A DNA stretch of 19,751 nt from a bacterium (GTDB lineage Bacteria > Blakebacterota > Blakebacteria > Blakebacterales > Blakebacteraceae), in assembly GCA_025774615.1 (NCBI GenBank), contig JALGVQ010000042.1, positions 1-19,751 on the forward strand, written 5' to 3'. Under the pieces are notes generated by a model. It was given only the letters and a program-made list of their open reading frames with translations, was not told the origin of the DNA and did no database searches. Below are positions 7,004 through 14,133 of the stretch, piece after piece; the stretch's first letter is position 1; every line of letters begins with the position of its first letter. A program made the translations under genes and the position numbers.

Positions 7004-7552
7004 TTATCTCACACGATCGTATACCAATCCCTGTGCCTTCTCCTCCAGCCTCGCGAGCAGGAAAAGAATATCGGAGAGCCGGTTGAGGTACGGCATGATA
7101 CTGGGATTGGATAATGCGTTTCCCTCTTCCTGAACGAGCGAAACAACGCCCCGTTCCACACGTCGTACAACGGTACGGGCGACATCGAGCGCGGCGCTGG
7201 CCGGAGTTCCACCGGGGATGATGAACACCGGTGGAAGTTCAACTTCTTCTTCAAGTTCGTGGCCGAGTTCCTCGAGAGATTTCAGGTGATCCACATCGAG
7301 ACGGACTTTGAGACCGGAAGCGGCCGAGGGTGATGCCGCCAGTTCCGCCCCGACAATGAAACATACCTTCTGGATCGCATGGAGGTGCTCTCCGATCCGG
7401 TCCACTTCCGTCAGGGCGCGGGCCAGTCCCATCATGGAAACGGCTTCATCCAGGTCACCGTAGGTCGAGGTCCGGGTACTGCTCTTGAGAACCTCTTCAC
7501 CAGAGAGGAGCCGCGTTCGCCCACCATCACCCTTTTTGGTTGAAATACTCAT
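7004..7552 (-). CDS. PduO-type ATP:cob(I)alamin (corrinoid) adenosyltransferase
   Basis: This 182-residue protein transfers the 5'-deoxyadenosyl group of ATP to cob(I)alamin or a corrinoid to make coenzyme B12. PduO-family motifs appear in order: TKKGDGGRT (5-13, ATP phosphate binding), TYGDLDEAVS (30-39), FIIPGGTPASAALDVAR (110-126), RRVER (130-134) and YLNRLSDILFLLAR (155-168). Usual PduO length and the expected helical-bundle pattern support an active enzyme. I start it at ATG 7552 because STKKGDGG then sits at the family's usual N-terminal position. A TTG at 7564 overlapping the upstream stop is an alternative. It lies 8 bp after the HD-GYP gene, indicating co-transcription. No B12-dependent enzyme is visible in this window. 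Confidence 0.93.
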   Translation of the reverse strand: MSISTKKGDGGRTRLLSGEEVLKSSTRTSTYGDLDEAVSMMGLARALTEVDRIGEHLHAIQKVCFIVGAELAASPSAASGLKVRLDVDHLKSLEELGHELEEEVELPPVFIIPGGTPASAALDVARTVVRRVERGVVSLVQEEGNALSNPSIMPYLNRLSDILFLLARLEEKAQGLVYDRVR

Positions 7553-7560
7553 CTCTGGTA

Positions 7561-8877
7561 TCAATCCATATCAGGTCGGTTGACATCCTCACATCTGTCG
7601 TAGGCACACATGAAGCGTTCCACCAGGTTTCGCTCTTCCGACGACAGAGCGTCTTCTTCCTTTTCGAGCAATACCTGTAATGTGCTCAGGGAAATCTTCT
7701 CGAACAGCAGCATGTCCTCTTCAGGAACCAGTTCGCTGTTGTCCTCTTCCAGTATCTTGACGATCCGGGAGAGGGGGAGCTGCTTGAAGGCATTGACGAA
7801 TTCCGGCTGGATGTGGCTGCCCTCGGATTCCTCATCCAGGATCTTCAGCACCTTCAGGAATTCCATCCGGTCACGATAATGCCGCCGGCTGGTGATTGCG
7901 TCGAAGATATCGCCCACAGCAATGACCCTTCCCGCCTCCGGGATATCATCGCCCCTGAGACCGAGAGGGTACCCCGAACCATCGAGCCGCTCGTGGTGGG
8001 TGGCCGACATCATCGGGATCTCCTTCTGCTCCCGCACGAAATGGATCTTGTCGAGGATGTTGAGGGAATGGAGGGCGTGGGTCTGGATGACCTTGTACTC
8101 CTCATCGGTCAACCTGCCATCCTTGAAGAGCACCACTTCCGGCACTCCGATCTTACCGATATCGTGCAGCAACGCGGCGGCGTTCAGAACCGCGAGCTGT
8201 TTCTCGGTGTACTCCAGTTCCTCGGCGATGGCCAGGGAGTACAACGTTACCCGCGAACTGTGTCCGGCTGTTATCGGATCCCGGGCATCCATCGCGGTTG
8301 AGAGTGTTTCTACGAACGAGATAAAACTTTTCTTCTGGTCCTCATAGAGCTGTGAGTTCTCGACTGCTACCGCCGCCTGGTTGGCAAGGGCGCATAGCAG
8401 TTCCTGATCTTCCTCATCGAATGGGTTCTCACTCTTTTTATTGAGGACCTGGATCACACCGATCCGCTCCCCCTCCTTGTTCGTCATGGGGACGCAGAGC
8501 ACCGACCTGGTCCGGTAACCGGTCTTCCGGTCGAAGTCCTGGTTGAAACGGATATCATCGTAGGCGTCGGGGATATTGAGGACTTCACCACTTGTCGCGA
8601 CCGCACCGGCCAGCCCGAGATCCATGGGGAACCTGATCTCCATGAACCGGACTCCCTGGGCAACTTTCGACCAGAGCTCCTTTTTCTCCCAGTCGATCAG
8701 GAAGAGGCTTGAGCGATCAGCATCCATCACCTCGGTGATCCGGGTGATGATCAGGTCGAGCAGTTCATCAAGATCCAGGGTCCCTCCGAGGGCCCGCATC
8801 ACATCGTAGACCGCCCGGTAGCGCGCTACCTCATGCTCGAGATCTTCATACGATCGTTTCTGTTCGTCGTCGGGCAT
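7561..8877 (-). CDS. GAF and HD-GYP domain protein, probable cyclic-di-GMP phosphodiesterase
   Basis: This is a 438-residue, two-domain, soluble protein. A short helical lead (AYDVMRALG-type) is followed by a GAF sensor domain (about 25-175, containing SVLCVPM and GVIQVLN) and an HD-GYP domain (about 185-370). The catalytic signature is intact: HSSRVT (206-211), LLHDIGKIGVPE with H238, D239 and K242, THALHS, HHERLDGSGYP (294-304), and the late IAVGDIFDAIT and RHYR motifs. HD-GYP enzymes hydrolyse cyclic di-GMP (or related cyclic dinucleotides) with a di- or tri-iron centre. The GAF ligand is unknown. ATG 8877 is chosen for its AGGA, 10 nt upstream; GTG 8913 is an alternative. It heads a minus-strand operon with the adenosyltransferase gene. 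Confidence 0.92.
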   Translation of the reverse strand: MPDDEQKRSYEDLEHEVARYRAVYDVMRALGGTLDLDELLDLIITRITEVMDADRSSLFLIDWEKKELWSKVAQGVRFMEIRFPMDLGLAGAVATSGEVLNIPDAYDDIRFNQDFDRKTGYRTRSVLCVPMTNKEGERIGVIQVLNKKSENPFDEEDQELLCALANQAAVAVENSQLYEDQKKSFISFVETLSTAMDARDPITAGHSSRVTLYSLAIAEELEYTEKQLAVLNAAALLHDIGKIGVPEVVLFKDGRLTDEEYKVIQTHALHSLNILDKIHFVREQKEIPMMSATHHERLDGSGYPLGLRGDDIPEAGRVIAVGDIFDAITSRRHYRDRMEFLKVLKILDEESEGSHIQPEFVNAFKQLPLSRIVKILEEDNSELVPEEDMLLFEKISLSTLQVLLEKEEDALSSEERNLVERFMCAYDRCEDVNRPDMD

Positions 8878-8963
8878 GCTGCCGGCGTCCTTTCGGATAT
8901 CCTGAATCGGCACCGATTCGCCTGCAAACCTGGAGACTCAGCTCTTTATGTTACGTGCGCTTC

Positions 8964-9273: not shown

Positions 9274-9320
9274 TTTCTGCATCCGGATTTCACCTTTCCG
9301 ACTGGGAGAGGATGTACAGA

Positions 9321-9854
9321 ATGCCATCATCCAGCGCCGTGCCCGACTCCGTGGAACCGGAAGTGGTGGTGACCGAAGAAGACCTCGCCAGGGTAGATGA
9401 AATCCTGAAGCTACATCAGCACGACCGCAGCGAGATGGTCGCAATACTGCTGGGTGTGCAGGACGCCCTCGGGTACCTGCCTGTACCGGTCCTGAAGCAT
9501 CTCGCGGAACGTCTTGAGGTCTCCCCGATCTCACTCTTCGGAATCGTGACGTTCTACACCTCATTCCAACTGAATCCGCCGGGACGTCACAAGTGTACCG
9601 TCTGTATGGGAACCGCCTGCCATGTACGCGGCGCCGTGAACGTTCTTAAGGAGTTTGAACGCCGCCTCGATATCCCCGCCGGGAGCACGACCCCCGACCG
9701 TCATTTCCAGCTCGAGACAGTCAACTGTGTCGGTGCCTGCGCCATGGGGCCGCTGGTCATCGTGGATGATGAATACCATGGCAACATAACTCCGACAAAA
9801 ATCCCGAGACTGCTGCGCCGTCTTGAACGTGACAAGGCCGAGGATGTGACATGA
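9321..9854 (+). CDS. NuoE/HydC-like [2Fe-2S] thioredoxin-fold subunit of a NADH/ferredoxin oxidoreductase
   Basis: This 177-residue protein belongs to the 24-kDa NuoE/HoxE/HydC (BfuC) family. An N-terminal helical bundle (DALGYLPVPVLKHLAERL and SLFGIVTFYTSF, about residues 48-82) precedes the thioredoxin-like cluster domain. The four [2Fe-2S] ligands are C95 and C100 (CMGTAC) and C136 and C140 (CVGAC). Such subunits dock on the FMN subunit and exchange electrons with it. ATG 9321 is preferred because GAGAGG at 9306-9311 sits 9 nt upstream; ATG 9312 lies only 3 nt from GGGAG. Its stop overlaps the next start in an ATGA (9851-9854), showing translational coupling. It is the first gene of the four-gene operon. 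No membrane subunit of complex I is present nearby. Confidence 0.93.
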   Translation: MPSSSAVPDSVEPEVVVTEEDLARVDEILKLHQHDRSEMVAILLGVQDALGYLPVPVLKHLAERLEVSPISLFGIVTFYTSFQLNPPGRHKCTVCMGTACHVRGAVNVLKEFERRLDIPAGSTTPDRHFQLETVNCVGACAMGPLVIVDDEYHGNITPTKIPRLLRRLERDKAEDVT

Positions 9855-11728
9855 CCGCCAAGATCAGATCCGTCAGCGAACTGCATGAACTCCAGGCGTC
9901 CCTGAAGGAAGAGCTGCAGGGCGACCGCACTGTCATTACCCTCTGCGCCGGTCCCGGTTGCGTGGCCAGTGGCGCGGACAACGTGGCCAAGGCCTTCCGG
10001 AAACACATCGAAGAGATGGGCCTGACCGACCAGGTGACCTTCAAGTGCACCGGATGTCACGGATTCTGTGCCCTGGCACCAGTGGTGGCCATCGATCCGG
10101 CAGGGTACTGCTATGAGGGTGTGAAGAAGGCCGATGTGAAGGATATCCTCGAGCGCACAATCGTTGGTGGCGAGGTTATCGAGAAGCTGCTTTATGTCGA
10201 CCCGGAGACGGGGGAGCCCATTCTGTATGAGAAGGATATCCCCTTCTACAAACATCAGGACCGCATACTGCTGGCCGAGAACCGGCAGATCGACCCCGAC
10301 AGCCTGGAGGACTTCCTCGCCATAGATGGGTACAGCGCCCTGGCCAAAGTACTGGATGAGATGTCATCGGAGGATGTGATCCAGGCCATACTCGATTCCG
10401 GCCTGAGGGGCAGGGGTGGAGCGGGGTTCCCGACCGGGTTGAAATGGCAGATCGCCCATCAGCAGACGGCCGAACCAAAATACATCGTCTGCAACGCCGA
10501 TGAGGGTGACCCCGGAGCCTTTATGGACCGGGGGATCATCGAAGGCAACCCGCATCGGGTAATCGAAGGCATGTGTATCGGTGCCCACGCGATCGGCGCG
10601 AACCAGGGGTTCGTCTATGTCCGTTACGAATACCCGATTGCCGTACAACGGATCAACCAGGCCGTCGACCAGGCCCGGGAGGCGGGACTGCTGGGAGAGA
10701 ACATCCTCGGGTCCGATTTCAGTTTCGACCTCAAGGTCGTGATGGGCGCCGGGGCTTTCGTCTGCGGCGAGGAAACCGCGCTCATCGCCTCGCTTGAAGG
10801 CAAAAAGGGCGAACCGATCCAGCGCCCGCCTTTTCCCGTCGAGTCCGGGTACAAGGGCAAGCCGACGGTCATCAACAACGTTGAGAGCTGGACCTGCGTG
10901 CCCCATGTGATCGGCAAGGGAGCAGAGTGGTTCTCCTCCATCGGTTCGGAAGGCAGCAAGGGGACCAAGATTTTCTCTCTGGTAGGGAAGGTCAAAAACA
11001 CCGGACTCGTCGAAGTCCCGATGGGGACGACGATCCGCAAGATCGTCTACGACATCGGCGGAGGCATCCCCAACGGCAAGAAATTCAAAGCCATCCAGAC
11101 AGGTGGACCTGCCGGTGGCTGTCTGCCTGAGGATCTCATCGACCTGCCCGTTGACTTCCAGGCGCTGACCGAGGCTGGAACCATCATGGGGTCGGGTGGT
11201 CTGATCGTGATGGACGAATCGACCTGCATGGTCGACGTGGCCCGTTACTTCACGCGTTTTCTTGAGGAGGAGTCGTGCGGCAAGTGCTACTCCTGCCGCA
11301 AGGGAACGCAGCGGATGCGGGAGCTCCTCGACGACATCTGCGAAGGGAAGGGAACGCTCGATCATCTCGAGCTGCTCGAGGAACTGGGCGAGACCGTGAA
11401 CAACGCGAGCATGTGCGGGCTGGGGCAGAACGCCGCGAACCCGGTCTTGTCGACCCTACGCTACTTCCGTCACGAATATGAGGCTCACATCACCGAACAC
11501 CGCTGTTCAGCCGGTGTCTGTGCAGCTCTGATCAGGTATTTCATTCAGGAAGAGCTCTGCGACGGATGTCACGCCTGCTCCAAGGTCTGTCCGGTCGAAG
11601 CAATCAGCGGTGAGAAGGACCTGGAACACAACATCGATCCCGATGTCTGCATCACGTGCGGATCATGCATCGAGGTCTGTCCGACGGATGCGATCATCAT
11701 CGTCTCGGGAAGTGGGGAAGAAGCATGA
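9851..11728 (+). CDS. NuoF/HydB-like NADH-oxidising FMN/Fe-S subunit with C-terminal ferredoxin domain
   Basis: This 625-residue protein has the full HydB (BfuB) domain order. An N-terminal thioredoxin-like [2Fe-2S] domain has C32, C37, C69 and C73, plus C66. The NuoF FMN/NADH domain follows, with GLRGRGGAGFPTGLKW (184-199), CNADEGDPGAFMDR (214-227) and GAGAFVCGEETALI (299-312). An SLBB-like region and the N3-type [4Fe-4S] site follow, with C476, C479, C482 and C522. A CSAGVC motif (552-557) is typical of the HydB C-terminal region. Last come two ferredoxin-type [4Fe-4S] sites (C570/573/576/580 and C600/603/606/610). It should exchange electrons with NAD(H) and ferredoxin. Its start and stop overlap both neighbours in ATGA junctions, so the three core subunits should be made in a fixed ratio. 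Confidence 0.93.
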   Translation: MTAKIRSVSELHELQASLKEELQGDRTVITLCAGPGCVASGADNVAKAFRKHIEEMGLTDQVTFKCTGCHGFCALAPVVAIDPAGYCYEGVKKADVKDILERTIVGGEVIEKLLYVDPETGEPILYEKDIPFYKHQDRILLAENRQIDPDSLEDFLAIDGYSALAKVLDEMSSEDVIQAILDSGLRGRGGAGFPTGLKWQIAHQQTAEPKYIVCNADEGDPGAFMDRGIIEGNPHRVIEGMCIGAHAIGANQGFVYVRYEYPIAVQRINQAVDQAREAGLLGENILGSDFSFDLKVVMGAGAFVCGEETALIASLEGKKGEPIQRPPFPVESGYKGKPTVINNVESWTCVPHVIGKGAEWFSSIGSEGSKGTKIFSLVGKVKNTGLVEVPMGTTIRKIVYDIGGGIPNGKKFKAIQTGGPAGGCLPEDLIDLPVDFQALTEAGTIMGSGGLIVMDESTCMVDVARYFTRFLEEESCGKCYSCRKGTQRMRELLDDICEGKGTLDHLELLEELGETVNNASMCGLGQNAANPVLSTLRYFRHEYEAHITEHRCSAGVCAALIRYFIQEELCDGCHACSKVCPVEAISGEKDLEHNIDPDVCITCGSCIEVCPTDAIIIVSGSGEEA

Positions 11729-12447
11729 AACTGATATCGCTGAATATCAACGGATTGCCGGTCGAGGTGGAAGAGGGTACCACCCTCCTTGAGGCGGCAA
11801 GGGCGTATGGTGTCAATATCCCGACCCTCTGTCACGATGACGGCCTCAGCAGTTACGGAGCCTGTCGCCTTTGCGTCGTCGAGATCGGCCCTCCCGGCAA
11901 ATCGAAGATGGTGTCTTCCTGTACCTACCGGTGTGAAGATGGGCTTGAGGTCCGCACGCACTCGGCGAAGATCATGAAAACACGGGCGATGATGCTGGAA
12001 CTGCTGGTCAGTTCTTCACCGCAGTCGAAGACGATTCAGGACCTTGCTTCGGCGCATGGCATGACGAAGCAGCGTTTTCGACCTGAACATGAAGATTGTA
12101 TTCTGTGTGGTCTCTGCGTCCGGATGTGTGCGGAGCAGATGATGTCATCGGCGATCGGATTCGTTGGTCGTGGACCGAACCGCCGTATTACTACCGCTTT
12201 CGATGAGGTCTCAGAGGTCTGCCGAAGATGTGGCGGTTGCATGTATATCTGTCCGGTATGCACGTCACGTTGCCATGGTCCTGACGAAGAGGCGACTCTC
12301 TGCAATGCTTGCCTCAATTTCAGCCCATCGTGTGTTGCGGTATATGATGATGTTCAATGTTGGATGCCGCCGGAATGCGGCACCTGTGTCCGTCCCGAAG
12401 GGGATTACCTGCCCGCCACCGGGCGGTTGGCAACAGAAGAGTCATAA
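11725..12447 (+). CDS. NuoG/HydA-like Fe-S subunit without hydrogenase domain (BfuA-like)
   Basis: This 240-residue protein has an N-terminal plant-type [2Fe-2S] domain with C36, C47, C50 and C66. Two ferredoxin [4Fe-4S] motifs follow: C125/128/131/135 and C166/169/172/176. The HxxxC-type extra cluster usual in NuoG and HydA is absent: the LELLVSSSPQSKTIQDLA stretch (91-108) has no His or Cys there. The last 60 residues hold eight more cysteines (C179, C183, C193, C196, C203, C212, C218, C221), enough for one or two further metal sites. No [FeFe]-hydrogenase H-cluster motif and no molybdopterin domain are present, so this is an electron conduit. ATG 11725 overlaps the upstream TGA. By position it should link the FMN core to the glutamate-synthase-like protein downstream. 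Confidence 0.88.
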   Translation: MKLISLNINGLPVEVEEGTTLLEAARAYGVNIPTLCHDDGLSSYGACRLCVVEIGPPGKSKMVSSCTYRCEDGLEVRTHSAKIMKTRAMMLELLVSSSPQSKTIQDLASAHGMTKQRFRPEHEDCILCGLCVRMCAEQMMSSAIGFVGRGPNRRITTAFDEVSEVCRRCGGCMYICPVCTSRCHGPDEEATLCNACLNFSPSCVAVYDDVQCWMPPECGTCVRPEGDYLPATGRLATEES

Positions 12448-12479
12448 CCAGAGAAACAGCCCGGAATAGTGGGCACTCC

Positions 12480-12486
12480 AGGAGGA
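12480..12486 (+). promoter_or_regulatory. Strong ribosome-binding site of the GltS-like gene
   Basis: AGGAGGA lies 6 nt before ATG 12493. An in-frame GTG at 12469 would put this site inside the gene, so 12493 is taken as the start. Confidence 0.8.
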
Positions 12487-12492
12487 ATCACA

Positions 12493-14073
12493 ATGTCGTA
12501 CACCAAGGTCAACGCGAGCGCAGCAACGCTCTCGAAAAACCGCACCGAAGACGCCATCACGAGCATTTCCGGGATGTGCGCGACCTGTGTGGACGGCTGC
12601 GTCGGGATGTGCGAGATCGGCAAATCTGCATATCGTGGAGCGGAAATGATCTACCCGCAGCCCTTCGGCATCATCACCGCTGCATCCGAGAAGGAGTATC
12701 CGATCGACTACAGCCACCTGACCATCCTCGGGACCGCCAAGGGCGCTCACGGGATCGAGGCTGACAGTGACAAGGCGATCTTCCCGAACGTGAAGCTGGA
12801 ACGTGAGATCGGAGCCGACAACAAGTTCACAGTCGGCCTCCCCTTCGTCATCGCCGGTATGGGATCCACCAACGTCGCCGCCAGGAACTGGGAAGGTCTC
12901 TCCATCGGAGCAGCCCTTCAGGGCGTACCCCTTACCATCGGTGAGAATGTGGTGGGGATGGACATGCAGTCCGAATTCAAGGACGGCAGGGTGTTGAAAT
13001 CCCCCGGGCTCGAGAGCCGCGTGAAACCTTATCAGGATTGGCAGATCGACGGCAAAGGCGATGTGATCCTGCAGGCAAATATCGAGGACACACGTCTGGG
13101 CGTCCAGGAGTACGCAATCGAAAAGCTCGGTGTCAAAACTGCCGAACTGAAGTGGGGTCAGGGTGCCAAGGACATCGGTGGCGAAGTCATGATCACCAAC
13201 CTTGAGAAGGCACAGGAGCTCTACAAGCGTGGTTACGTGGTTCTCCCCAACCCCACTGACCCCATGGTGATCGAATCATTCAAGTCGGGCGTCTTTCACG
13301 AGTTTGAGCGGCACAGCCGTGTCGGCATGATCAACGAGGAAGACTTCATGGCCCGTGTCGAGGAACTGAGGGCAGCCGGCGCACAGCGTATCACCCTGAA
13401 GACAGGCGCCTACCGCCCTGCCGACCTGGCCAGAGCGATCAAGTGGGCCTCCCAGGCACAACTCGACCTGCTGACGGTCGACGGTGCCGGGGGCGGGACC
13501 GGCATGAGCCCCTGGCGCATGATGAACGAGTGGGGTGTCCCGATCGTCGAACTGCACAGCCTGACTCACAATATGGCAAAGCACCTTGACGAGAAGGGTG
13601 AGTTCGTGCCCGATATCGCCTTCGCGGGTGGATTCACCTTTGAAGACATGATCTTCAAGGGACTCGCGATGGGCGCGCCATACACCAAACTGATCGCGAT
13701 GGCGCGTTCGCCGCTCGCTGCCGCCATGGTCGGAAAGACCCTGGGCAAACACATGGCCGACGGCGCGATGCCCGTCTTCGTGGGCCGCTTCGGCACCACG
13801 CCGGAAGAGGTGTTCATCACCGCTCCCGAGCTGAAGGACCTCGTTGGTCCGGAACGTTTCAAGGAGATGCCGACCGGCGCCATGGGTGTCTACACCTACT
13901 TCAGCCGGCTGGCACAGGGCCTGCGCCAGATCATGGCCGGTGAGCGCAAGTTCAACCTCGACGTCATCACGCGTGATGATGTGGCCTGCCTGACGCGGGA
14001 ATCCGCTGACGTCACCGGGCTGGATTACATCACCGAGGTGGACGCCAAAGAGGTCGAAGAGATCCTGGGATAA
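12493..14073 (+). CDS. Stand-alone glutamate synthase FMN-domain homologue with N-terminal Fe-S-type cysteine motif
   Basis: This 526-residue protein matches the FMN-binding (Glu_synthase) domain of glutamate synthase alpha subunits. Matching segments are ELKWGQGAKDIGGEV (218-232, the QGAKPG-type motif), a conserved lysine in ITLKTGAYRPADLARAIK (300-317), the FMN phosphate loop LTVDGAGGGTGMSP (327-340), and AFAGGFTFEDMIFKGLAMGA (376-395). The class II glutaminase domain, the GXGXG domain and the [3Fe-4S] cysteine triad of true GltB are all missing. Instead the N-terminus carries C29, C32, C36 and C40 (C-x2-C-x3-C-x3-C), probably a [4Fe-4S] site. The 45 bp gap from the NuoG-like gene and the terminator immediately after it make it the last gene of the NADH/Fe-S operon. 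The substrate is unknown. It may be an iminoglutarate-type or another carbonyl/imine reductase fed by the complex. Confidence 0.9.
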   Translation: MSYTKVNASAATLSKNRTEDAITSISGMCATCVDGCVGMCEIGKSAYRGAEMIYPQPFGIITAASEKEYPIDYSHLTILGTAKGAHGIEADSDKAIFPNVKLEREIGADNKFTVGLPFVIAGMGSTNVAARNWEGLSIGAALQGVPLTIGENVVGMDMQSEFKDGRVLKSPGLESRVKPYQDWQIDGKGDVILQANIEDTRLGVQEYAIEKLGVKTAELKWGQGAKDIGGEVMITNLEKAQELYKRGYVVLPNPTDPMVIESFKSGVFHEFERHSRVGMINEEDFMARVEELRAAGAQRITLKTGAYRPADLARAIKWASQAQLDLLTVDGAGGGTGMSPWRMMNEWGVPIVELHSLTHNMAKHLDEKGEFVPDIAFAGGFTFEDMIFKGLAMGAPYTKLIAMARSPLAAAMVGKTLGKHMADGAMPVFVGRFGTTPEEVFITAPELKDLVGPERFKEMPTGAMGVYTYFSRLAQGLRQIMAGERKFNLDVITRDDVACLTRESADVTGLDYITEVDAKEVEEILG

Positions 14074-14099: not shown

Positions 14100-14133
14100 G
14101 GGCCTGCCGGCAGTTGTCGGCAGGCCCTTTTTT
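14100..14133 (+). terminator. Intrinsic terminator of the NADH/Fe-S/GltS-like operon
   Basis: GGGCCTGCCG (14100-14109) pairs perfectly with CGGCAGGCCC (14118-14127) around an 8-nt loop and is followed by six Ts (14128-14133). It starts 27 bp after the stop codon. The stop of the convergent crotonase gene lies within the T-tract. On the minus strand only a short T-run follows, so it works mainly for the plus strand. Confidence 0.92.

Follow-up and report, generated by a model that had tools for sequence, protein, structure and literature searches.

Enzymes of the Bfu (HydABC) family exchange two electrons each with NAD and ferredoxin and four with a third substrate (PMC9304861). The third substrates given in the survey of the family are H2, formate, CO, pyruvate, aldehydes, aryl-CoA, NADP, F420, quinone and peroxide; 17 clades have no assignment, metagenomic data were excluded, and the word glutamate is absent from the survey (PMC9304861). 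Both Schut et al. (PMC9304861) and Feng et al. (PMC8880783) singled out the penta-coordinated B2 cluster, whose ligands in A. mobile are C438, C476, H525, C531 and C536. The histidine is missing from non-bifurcating homologues and is a diagnostic of bifurcation (PMC9304861, PMC8880783).

The DNA analysed here (the window, 19,751 nucleotides) belongs to contig C318 of a metagenome-assembled genome (G000) that is 82% complete. At 9321-14073, tightly packed on the forward strand, it carries bfuC, bfuB, bfuA and a gltS-like gene. The preliminary description of the window had read this stretch as four packed genes for HydC-like, HydB-like, HydA-like and GltS FMN-domain proteins, and the open reading frames, Pfam and PDB comparisons placed all four there.

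Compared with the Bfu family, the set is nearest to Type 2 enzymes such as Wor-Bfu, and its BfuB is nearest to that of the A. mobile NiFe-Bfu (Type 3) (PMC9304861). It has the BfuBC core with the B1-B5 and C1 ligands in common with the family, and a BfuA lacking both the H-cluster and HxxxCxxC, together with an extra subunit for the third substrate, in common with the nearest types. Unlike the surveyed enzymes, it has a GltS-type FMN protein as third module and an eight-cysteine tail on BfuA, and in about half of its relatives a GltD domain has taken the place of the BfuB ferredoxin tail. With canonical glutamate synthase (GltB/GltD; Fd-GltS) it shares the motifs of the FMN barrel (QGAK, the lysine and GGTGASP) and, in the fused relatives, a GltD-like partner, but it has no glutaminase domain, GXGXG domain or [3Fe-4S] cysteines, possesses an N-terminal Cys4 motif of its own and would receive NADH and ferredoxin electrons through Bfu. 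A HydB-like core also occurs together with a GltD-like domain in Sporomusa-type Nfn (Stn / Nfn-Bfu; PMC7483475). There, the NuoG/BfuA-type subunit contains GltD, which serves as the NADPH site, whereas the sister forms of our set carry GltD on BfuB and have a GltS-like subunit in addition. In ANME archaea, putative F420-dependent glutamate synthases of the FrhB10 type likewise cluster with subunits of glutamate synthase and have an F420 module in place of BfuBC (PMC9012536). The preliminary description named no characterised member of this composition, and our full-text literature searches found no description of it either. The exclusion of metagenomic data from the Bfu survey may be the reason why it was missed. 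We read the set, which we call GltS-Bfu, as an undescribed Bfu subtype that may well make glutamate with NADH and ferredoxin.

The bifurcating-type core and its electron subunit

BfuC (9321..9854, + strand; an alternative start is possible at the ATG at 9312) is a HydC/NuoE-like protein with one [2Fe-2S] cluster (C95, C100, C136, C140). It matched the Pfam family 2Fe-2S_thioredx (E 2e-45), its best solved match was HydC (8a6t_C), and the cluster cysteines were kept in 58-59 of 59 sequences. As in other Bfu enzymes, this C1 protein is encoded beside bfuB. ATGA overlaps join bfuC to bfuB and bfuB to bfuA.

BfuB (9851..11728, +) showed the Bfu domain set in Pfam: Trx-like [2Fe-2S], Complex1_51K, SLBB, NADH_4Fe-4S and dicluster Fer4. 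It thus carries the NADH/FMN site, the B1 and B2 clusters and a ferredoxin tail with two [4Fe-4S] clusters (11537..11725, +). Its best solved match was 7t2r_B. Among solved full-length BfuB/HydB chains of bifurcating enzymes, the top five (7t2r NiFe-Bfu, 7q4v and 8a6t FeFe, 9mqx, 9n5u Nfn) scored 671-776 bits; chains of formate dehydrogenase and complex I, which do not bifurcate, reached about 404 bits or less among the matches listed. In the alignment to 7t2r_B all five B2 ligands were present (C459, C497, H546, C552 and C557; 11225..11521, +), including the diagnostic histidine H546. This histidine, C459, C552 and C557 were found in 66/66 aligned BfuB sequences covering the site. The preliminary description had called the HydB-type features complete, and both the Pfam domains and the B2 alignment agreed with it.

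It had also proposed a BfuB tree. Here the window protein grouped with the bifurcating references, separate from two NuoF-type proteins that its own genome encodes; the split had a support of 88/98 with long outgroup branches, which is moderate. Taken with the B2 ligands and the bit scores, the membership of the set in the Bfu family is well supported. By sequence, the core is of the bifurcating or confurcating type that had been suggested, and it would couple NAD(H), ferredoxin and a third substrate. A second Bfu set was seen in the same genome (G000:C123; L104:5924-12634). It has bfuC, bfuB and a NuoG-like bfuA followed by an NfnA-like and an NfnB/GltD-like gene in a single stretch, is preceded by a sigma-54 response regulator, and is apparently BfuCBA joined to a whole NfnAB.

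BfuA (11725..12447, +) is a HydA-derived electron subunit of 240 aa, with the 247-aa 9mqx_A as its best solved match. Pfam detected Fer2_4 and dicluster Fer4, accounting for one [2Fe-2S] and two [4Fe-4S] clusters. No H-cluster domain was detected by Pfam, which separates it from the HydABC [FeFe]-hydrogenases. The protein had been described as HydA-like without the hydrogenase; this part stood, but the difference goes further, because the HxxxCxxC cluster is missing as well and a tail has been added. Twenty cysteines of BfuA are essentially invariant: four for the [2Fe-2S] cluster, eight for the two [4Fe-4S] clusters, and eight in the C-terminal tail (C179, 183, 193, 196, 203, 212, 218 and 221; 12259..12387, +). 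The tail cysteines were kept in 61-63 of 63 sequences and probably hold extra clusters leading toward the GltS-like subunit.

The GltS-like protein

The gltS-like gene (12493..14073, +; 526 aa) starts 45 nt 3' of bfuA and has AGGAGG ahead of it. An intrinsic terminator with a 12-bp stem and T6 (14100..14127, +; fold z = -6) follows, confirming the single closing terminator reported before. A promoter scan found no sigma-70 promoter.

Glu_synthase (PF01645), the family of the GltS FMN barrel, was the sole Pfam family found in the protein (E 5e-15, 56 bits, cut-off 20.4), and the match was limited to residues 279-397. The family was found in 48/48 aligned members. FMN_dh (PF01070) was found in 1/48 members, at E 1e-3, and not in the window protein. 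Pfam gave no GATase_2 or GXGXG domain in the GltS-like protein, and none of the four proteins showed a class II glutaminase domain, consistent with the earlier suggestion that the fourth protein does not hydrolyse glutamine. Canonical GltB carries CHxxTC-type [3Fe-4S] cysteines after the barrel, and these were absent from the aligned GltS-like proteins in two alignments. We did not class the set as a glutamate synthase, as it has neither a glutaminase domain nor the [3Fe-4S] site.

The protein has its own cysteine motif, C29-x2-C32-x3-C36-x3-C40, near the N-terminus (12577..12612, +; from alignment). This CxxCxxxCxxxC was invariant in 45 aligned GltS-like sequences and also in two clostridial solo homologues, and it is a probable [4Fe-4S] entry cluster. 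The active site was mapped by motif reading. E-x-K-x-x-QGAK-x3-GG, the SVKLV lysine and the GGTG(A/M)SP loop are common to the GltS-like protein and canonical GltB. In the window protein the first of these reads E218-L-K-W-G-Q-G-A-K-D-I-G-G-E (13144..13185, +), the counterpart of EIKMAQGAKPGEGGQ in canonical GltS, and K303 (13399..13401, +) is the counterpart of the SVKLV lysine. K303 was invariant in all 48 sequences; its equivalence to the GltB lysine was judged by eye. A profile comparison with GltB by HHalign gave a probability of 59% (E 9e-5), a significant but partial match.

The AlphaFold model was an FMN TIM barrel (pLDDT 82.6), and Foldseek matched it to the glutamate synthase 1ofd (E 2e-10). 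Just as close in fold, at Z 25-26, were the glycolate/lactate oxidases and type 2 IPP isomerase. We considered the hydroxy-acid oxidases, which came first in the fold list, but they were not separable from GltS, which Foldseek also gives. Searches by sequence returned no solved relative, and one of them gave just designed TIM barrels. The subunit probably contains FMN.

Conservation of the gene set and exchange of the BfuB tail

A genome scan found at least 515 GltS-like relatives, and the best 80 of these (64-91% identity) were taken. They span about 20 phylum-level groups of bacteria and archaea, including Aminicenantes, Zixibacteria, KSB1, Cloacimonadota, Planctomycetota, Bacteroidota, Bipolaricaulota, Armatimonadota, Myxococcota, Bacillota, Thermoplasmatota, ANME-2, Methanoperedens and Methanophagales. 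One of the two nearest relatives was from a Latescibacterota genome. Among these best 80 of at least 515 loci, bfuA lay directly 5' of the gltS-like gene in 76/76 loci with room for it, bfuB was present in 68/70 and bfuC in 63/63. The neighbouring bfu genes were all co-directional with the gltS-like gene, and order and strand were conserved across the roughly 20 phyla. This conservation rules out chance and answers the adjacency check proposed in the preliminary description.

In Planctomycetota, ten orthologues at 62-67% identity all adjoin bfuA, and nine GltS-like homologues at 42-58% have no Bfu linkage. Two clostridial homologues at 37-41% also have none. Since the distant paralogues compared here are unlinked and the close ones linked, there is a discrete Bfu-linked clade within a larger GltS-like family.

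BfuABC and the GltS-like protein could also be separate proteins, the former a hydrogenase-less NADH:ferredoxin module and the latter a flavoprotein that just shares the operon. That GltS-like homologues occur without Bfu genes speaks for this, but the adjacency is strict across about 20 phyla, and the eight-cysteine tail is present in practically all GltS-linked BfuA proteins; the C-terminus differs in an Aminicenantes BfuA (L079:5353-6129) whose gene does not immediately precede the GltS-like gene. We consider two separate proteins quite improbable.

Several variants of the locus were observed. A second, divergent GltS-like gene (45-60%) stands beside the set in Bacillota and Methanoperedens (L030:9028-10602, L031:1129-2703, L037:2038-3618, L057:2024-3604). 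Solo GltS-like homologues (~50%) occur in Planctomycetota (L117:8609-12961, L121, L115 and L118). In L117, two haem-oxygenase-like (PF14518) genes and a sigma-54 two-component system share an operon-like stretch with the gene; a sigma-54 regulator is present in L121 and L115 too, and L118 has similar gene lengths. In Acetoanaerobium (L011:5868-9903) a GltS-like gene lies between apparent NifX-type and MinD-type ferredoxin-ATPase genes, named by eye. A cysteine-rich protein of ~100 aa without Pfam match recurs 5' of bfuC (L039:1727-2179, L029:1830-2141 and others).

The window BfuB is of the ferredoxin-tail form. In 30 of 64 length-classed sequences, classes that draft assemblies may blur, a GltD-like FAD/NADPH domain (Fer4_20, Pyr_redox_2) occupies the position of the tail. 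These fused proteins have about 1055 aa, as in L039:3123-6296 and 29 other loci, and they retain the B2 site as well. The two forms interleave in the BfuB tree, where about 12 changes are needed, at least nine of them on well-supported branches. The BfuC of GltD-fusion loci often has an extra Zn-ribbon-like C-terminus.

That about half of the relatives have no ferredoxin tail any more would fit an enzyme that has given up ferredoxin and works as a non-bifurcating, NADH-dependent glutamate synthase. However, the window BfuB retains the tail and all B2 ligands, and B2 is kept even in the GltD-fused forms, making such an enzyme very unlikely here.

Nitrogen-metabolism neighbours and the proposed reaction

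We scanned 128 immediate co-directional neighbours, picked by position only from the best 80 of at least 515 loci, with Pfam. Glutamate dehydrogenase (GDH) was the commonest enzyme, with 8 seen versus 0.06 expected, for which the nominal probability is too small because some loci share ancestry. The same 128 included eight sigma-54 response regulators, six PPDK_N proteins and two glutamine synthetases (GS). Overall, GDH stands beside the set in 9 of these 80 loci in several phyla, 42 nt downstream in L043, and GS in three (L066, L072 and L088, the last from an archaeon). The GDHs of other loci are 33-57% identical to the query GDH; given such low identity, the association probably arose repeatedly. 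The preliminary description had guessed at a nitrogen-related reaction, and these neighbours back the guess, the reaction itself being our reading.

The glutamate couple lies at about -0.12 V, far above NADH, and GltD is the natural electron partner of GltS. Oxidation of glutamate could not reduce NAD and ferredoxin, and we therefore propose the reductive direction. The most likely third substrate, judged from sequence and gene context, is 2-oxoglutarate plus ammonia; this is favoured by the GDH and GS neighbours, the GltS-family motifs and the fusion of GltD to BfuB in 30 loci. Complex formation, substrate, direction and coupling are all inferred. Tentatively, and a little short of an even chance, the four proteins form one soluble heterotetrameric Bfu enzyme that makes glutamate from NADH, reduced ferredoxin, 2-oxoglutarate and ammonium. 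NADH would deliver its electrons at the FMN of BfuB, and reduced ferredoxin would do so at the tail of the same subunit. Electrons of both donors would merge and pass through BfuA and its cysteine-rich tail to the [4Fe-4S] cluster and FMN of the GltS-like subunit, where 2-oxoglutarate and free ammonia (as 2-iminoglutarate) would become glutamate: NADH + 2 Fd(red) + 2 (2-OG + NH4+) -> 2 Glu. In the GltD sister form, NADPH would replace ferredoxin as second donor. Low-potential electrons would stand in for the ATP of GS-GOGAT, so that scarce ammonia is strongly pulled and energy-limited anaerobes benefit. Against the glutamate reading, confurcation onto a -0.12 V couple would consume ferredoxin that GDH does without.

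An enzyme of the same build might use another keto acid, an imine or a hydroxy acid, with GDH and GS neighbours reflecting general amino-acid and nitrogen metabolism. The fold is near many FMN hydroxy-acid oxidases, the divergent tandem or adjacent paralogues described above suggest several specificities, and the solo paralogues adjoin haem-oxygenase-like genes, from which it follows that the GltS-like family need not be glutamate-specific. On the other side, Glu_synthase is the single common Pfam family (48/48 versus 1/48 for FMN_dh), and GDH and GS are enriched among the neighbours. Another substrate is thus somewhat unlikely, though a serious alternative.

Bifurcation in the manner of Etf-Bcd was also weighed, in which two NADH reduce iminoglutarate and ferredoxin so that glutamate synthesis conserves energy. 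The height of the glutamate couple above NADH and the complete set of ferredoxin-tail ligands are compatible with it, but its stoichiometry does not match the scheme of two electrons for NAD and ferredoxin and four for the third substrate (PMC9304861), and we regard it as improbable.

We hold it possible, if on the doubtful side, that GltS-Bfu enzymes are a widespread undescribed bifurcating class coupling ATP-free glutamate formation to ferredoxin and NADH (or NADPH), with a low-potential port at which ferredoxin and NADPH are exchangeable. If true, ammonia assimilation driven by low-potential electrons, not ATP, would be a third strategy, next to GDH and GS-GOGAT, in many uncultured anaerobes such as Aminicenantes, Zixibacteria, Latescibacterota, Phycisphaerae and the ANME and Methanoperedens archaea, and the Bfu family would gain a third-substrate class. 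The natural swap of ferredoxin tail and GltD would then be a direct handle for locating the low-potential port within BfuB.

The genomes of carriers were also compared. GATase_2, the glutaminase domain of GOGAT, was found in 4 of 49 carriers (one match weak), a small-type GDH in 41/49 and GS in 42/49. In two phylum controls GOGAT was present in 5/29 carriers versus 71/217 non-carriers and in 5/23 versus 82/176, a combined difference (p = 0.008) that is confounded by lineage and lifestyle. Replacement of GOGAT by GltS-Bfu was rejected, as non-carriers of the same phyla often have no GOGAT either; a modest trend remains, which we count on the side of the glutamate reading, and the scarcity of GOGAT in carriers is mostly a matter of lineage. 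No GATase_2 match passed the limit applied to the window genome (82% complete), and no small GDH was detected; the genome does have two GS-family genes and a 964-aa NAD-GDH. The latter led us to reject GltS-Bfu as the sole glutamate-forming enzyme of this organism. With GDH in most carriers too, GltS-Bfu would be an additional system and not demonstrably the sole route to glutamate.

Two further features of the surroundings were noted. Genes with a PPDK_N domain recur beside the set in eight loci, for example downstream of gltS in L029, L040, L082 and L085. In the window, 5' of the set and on the opposite strand (7004-8913, -), lie a PduO-type Cob(I)alamin adenosyltransferase gene and a GAF/HD phosphodiesterase-like gene.
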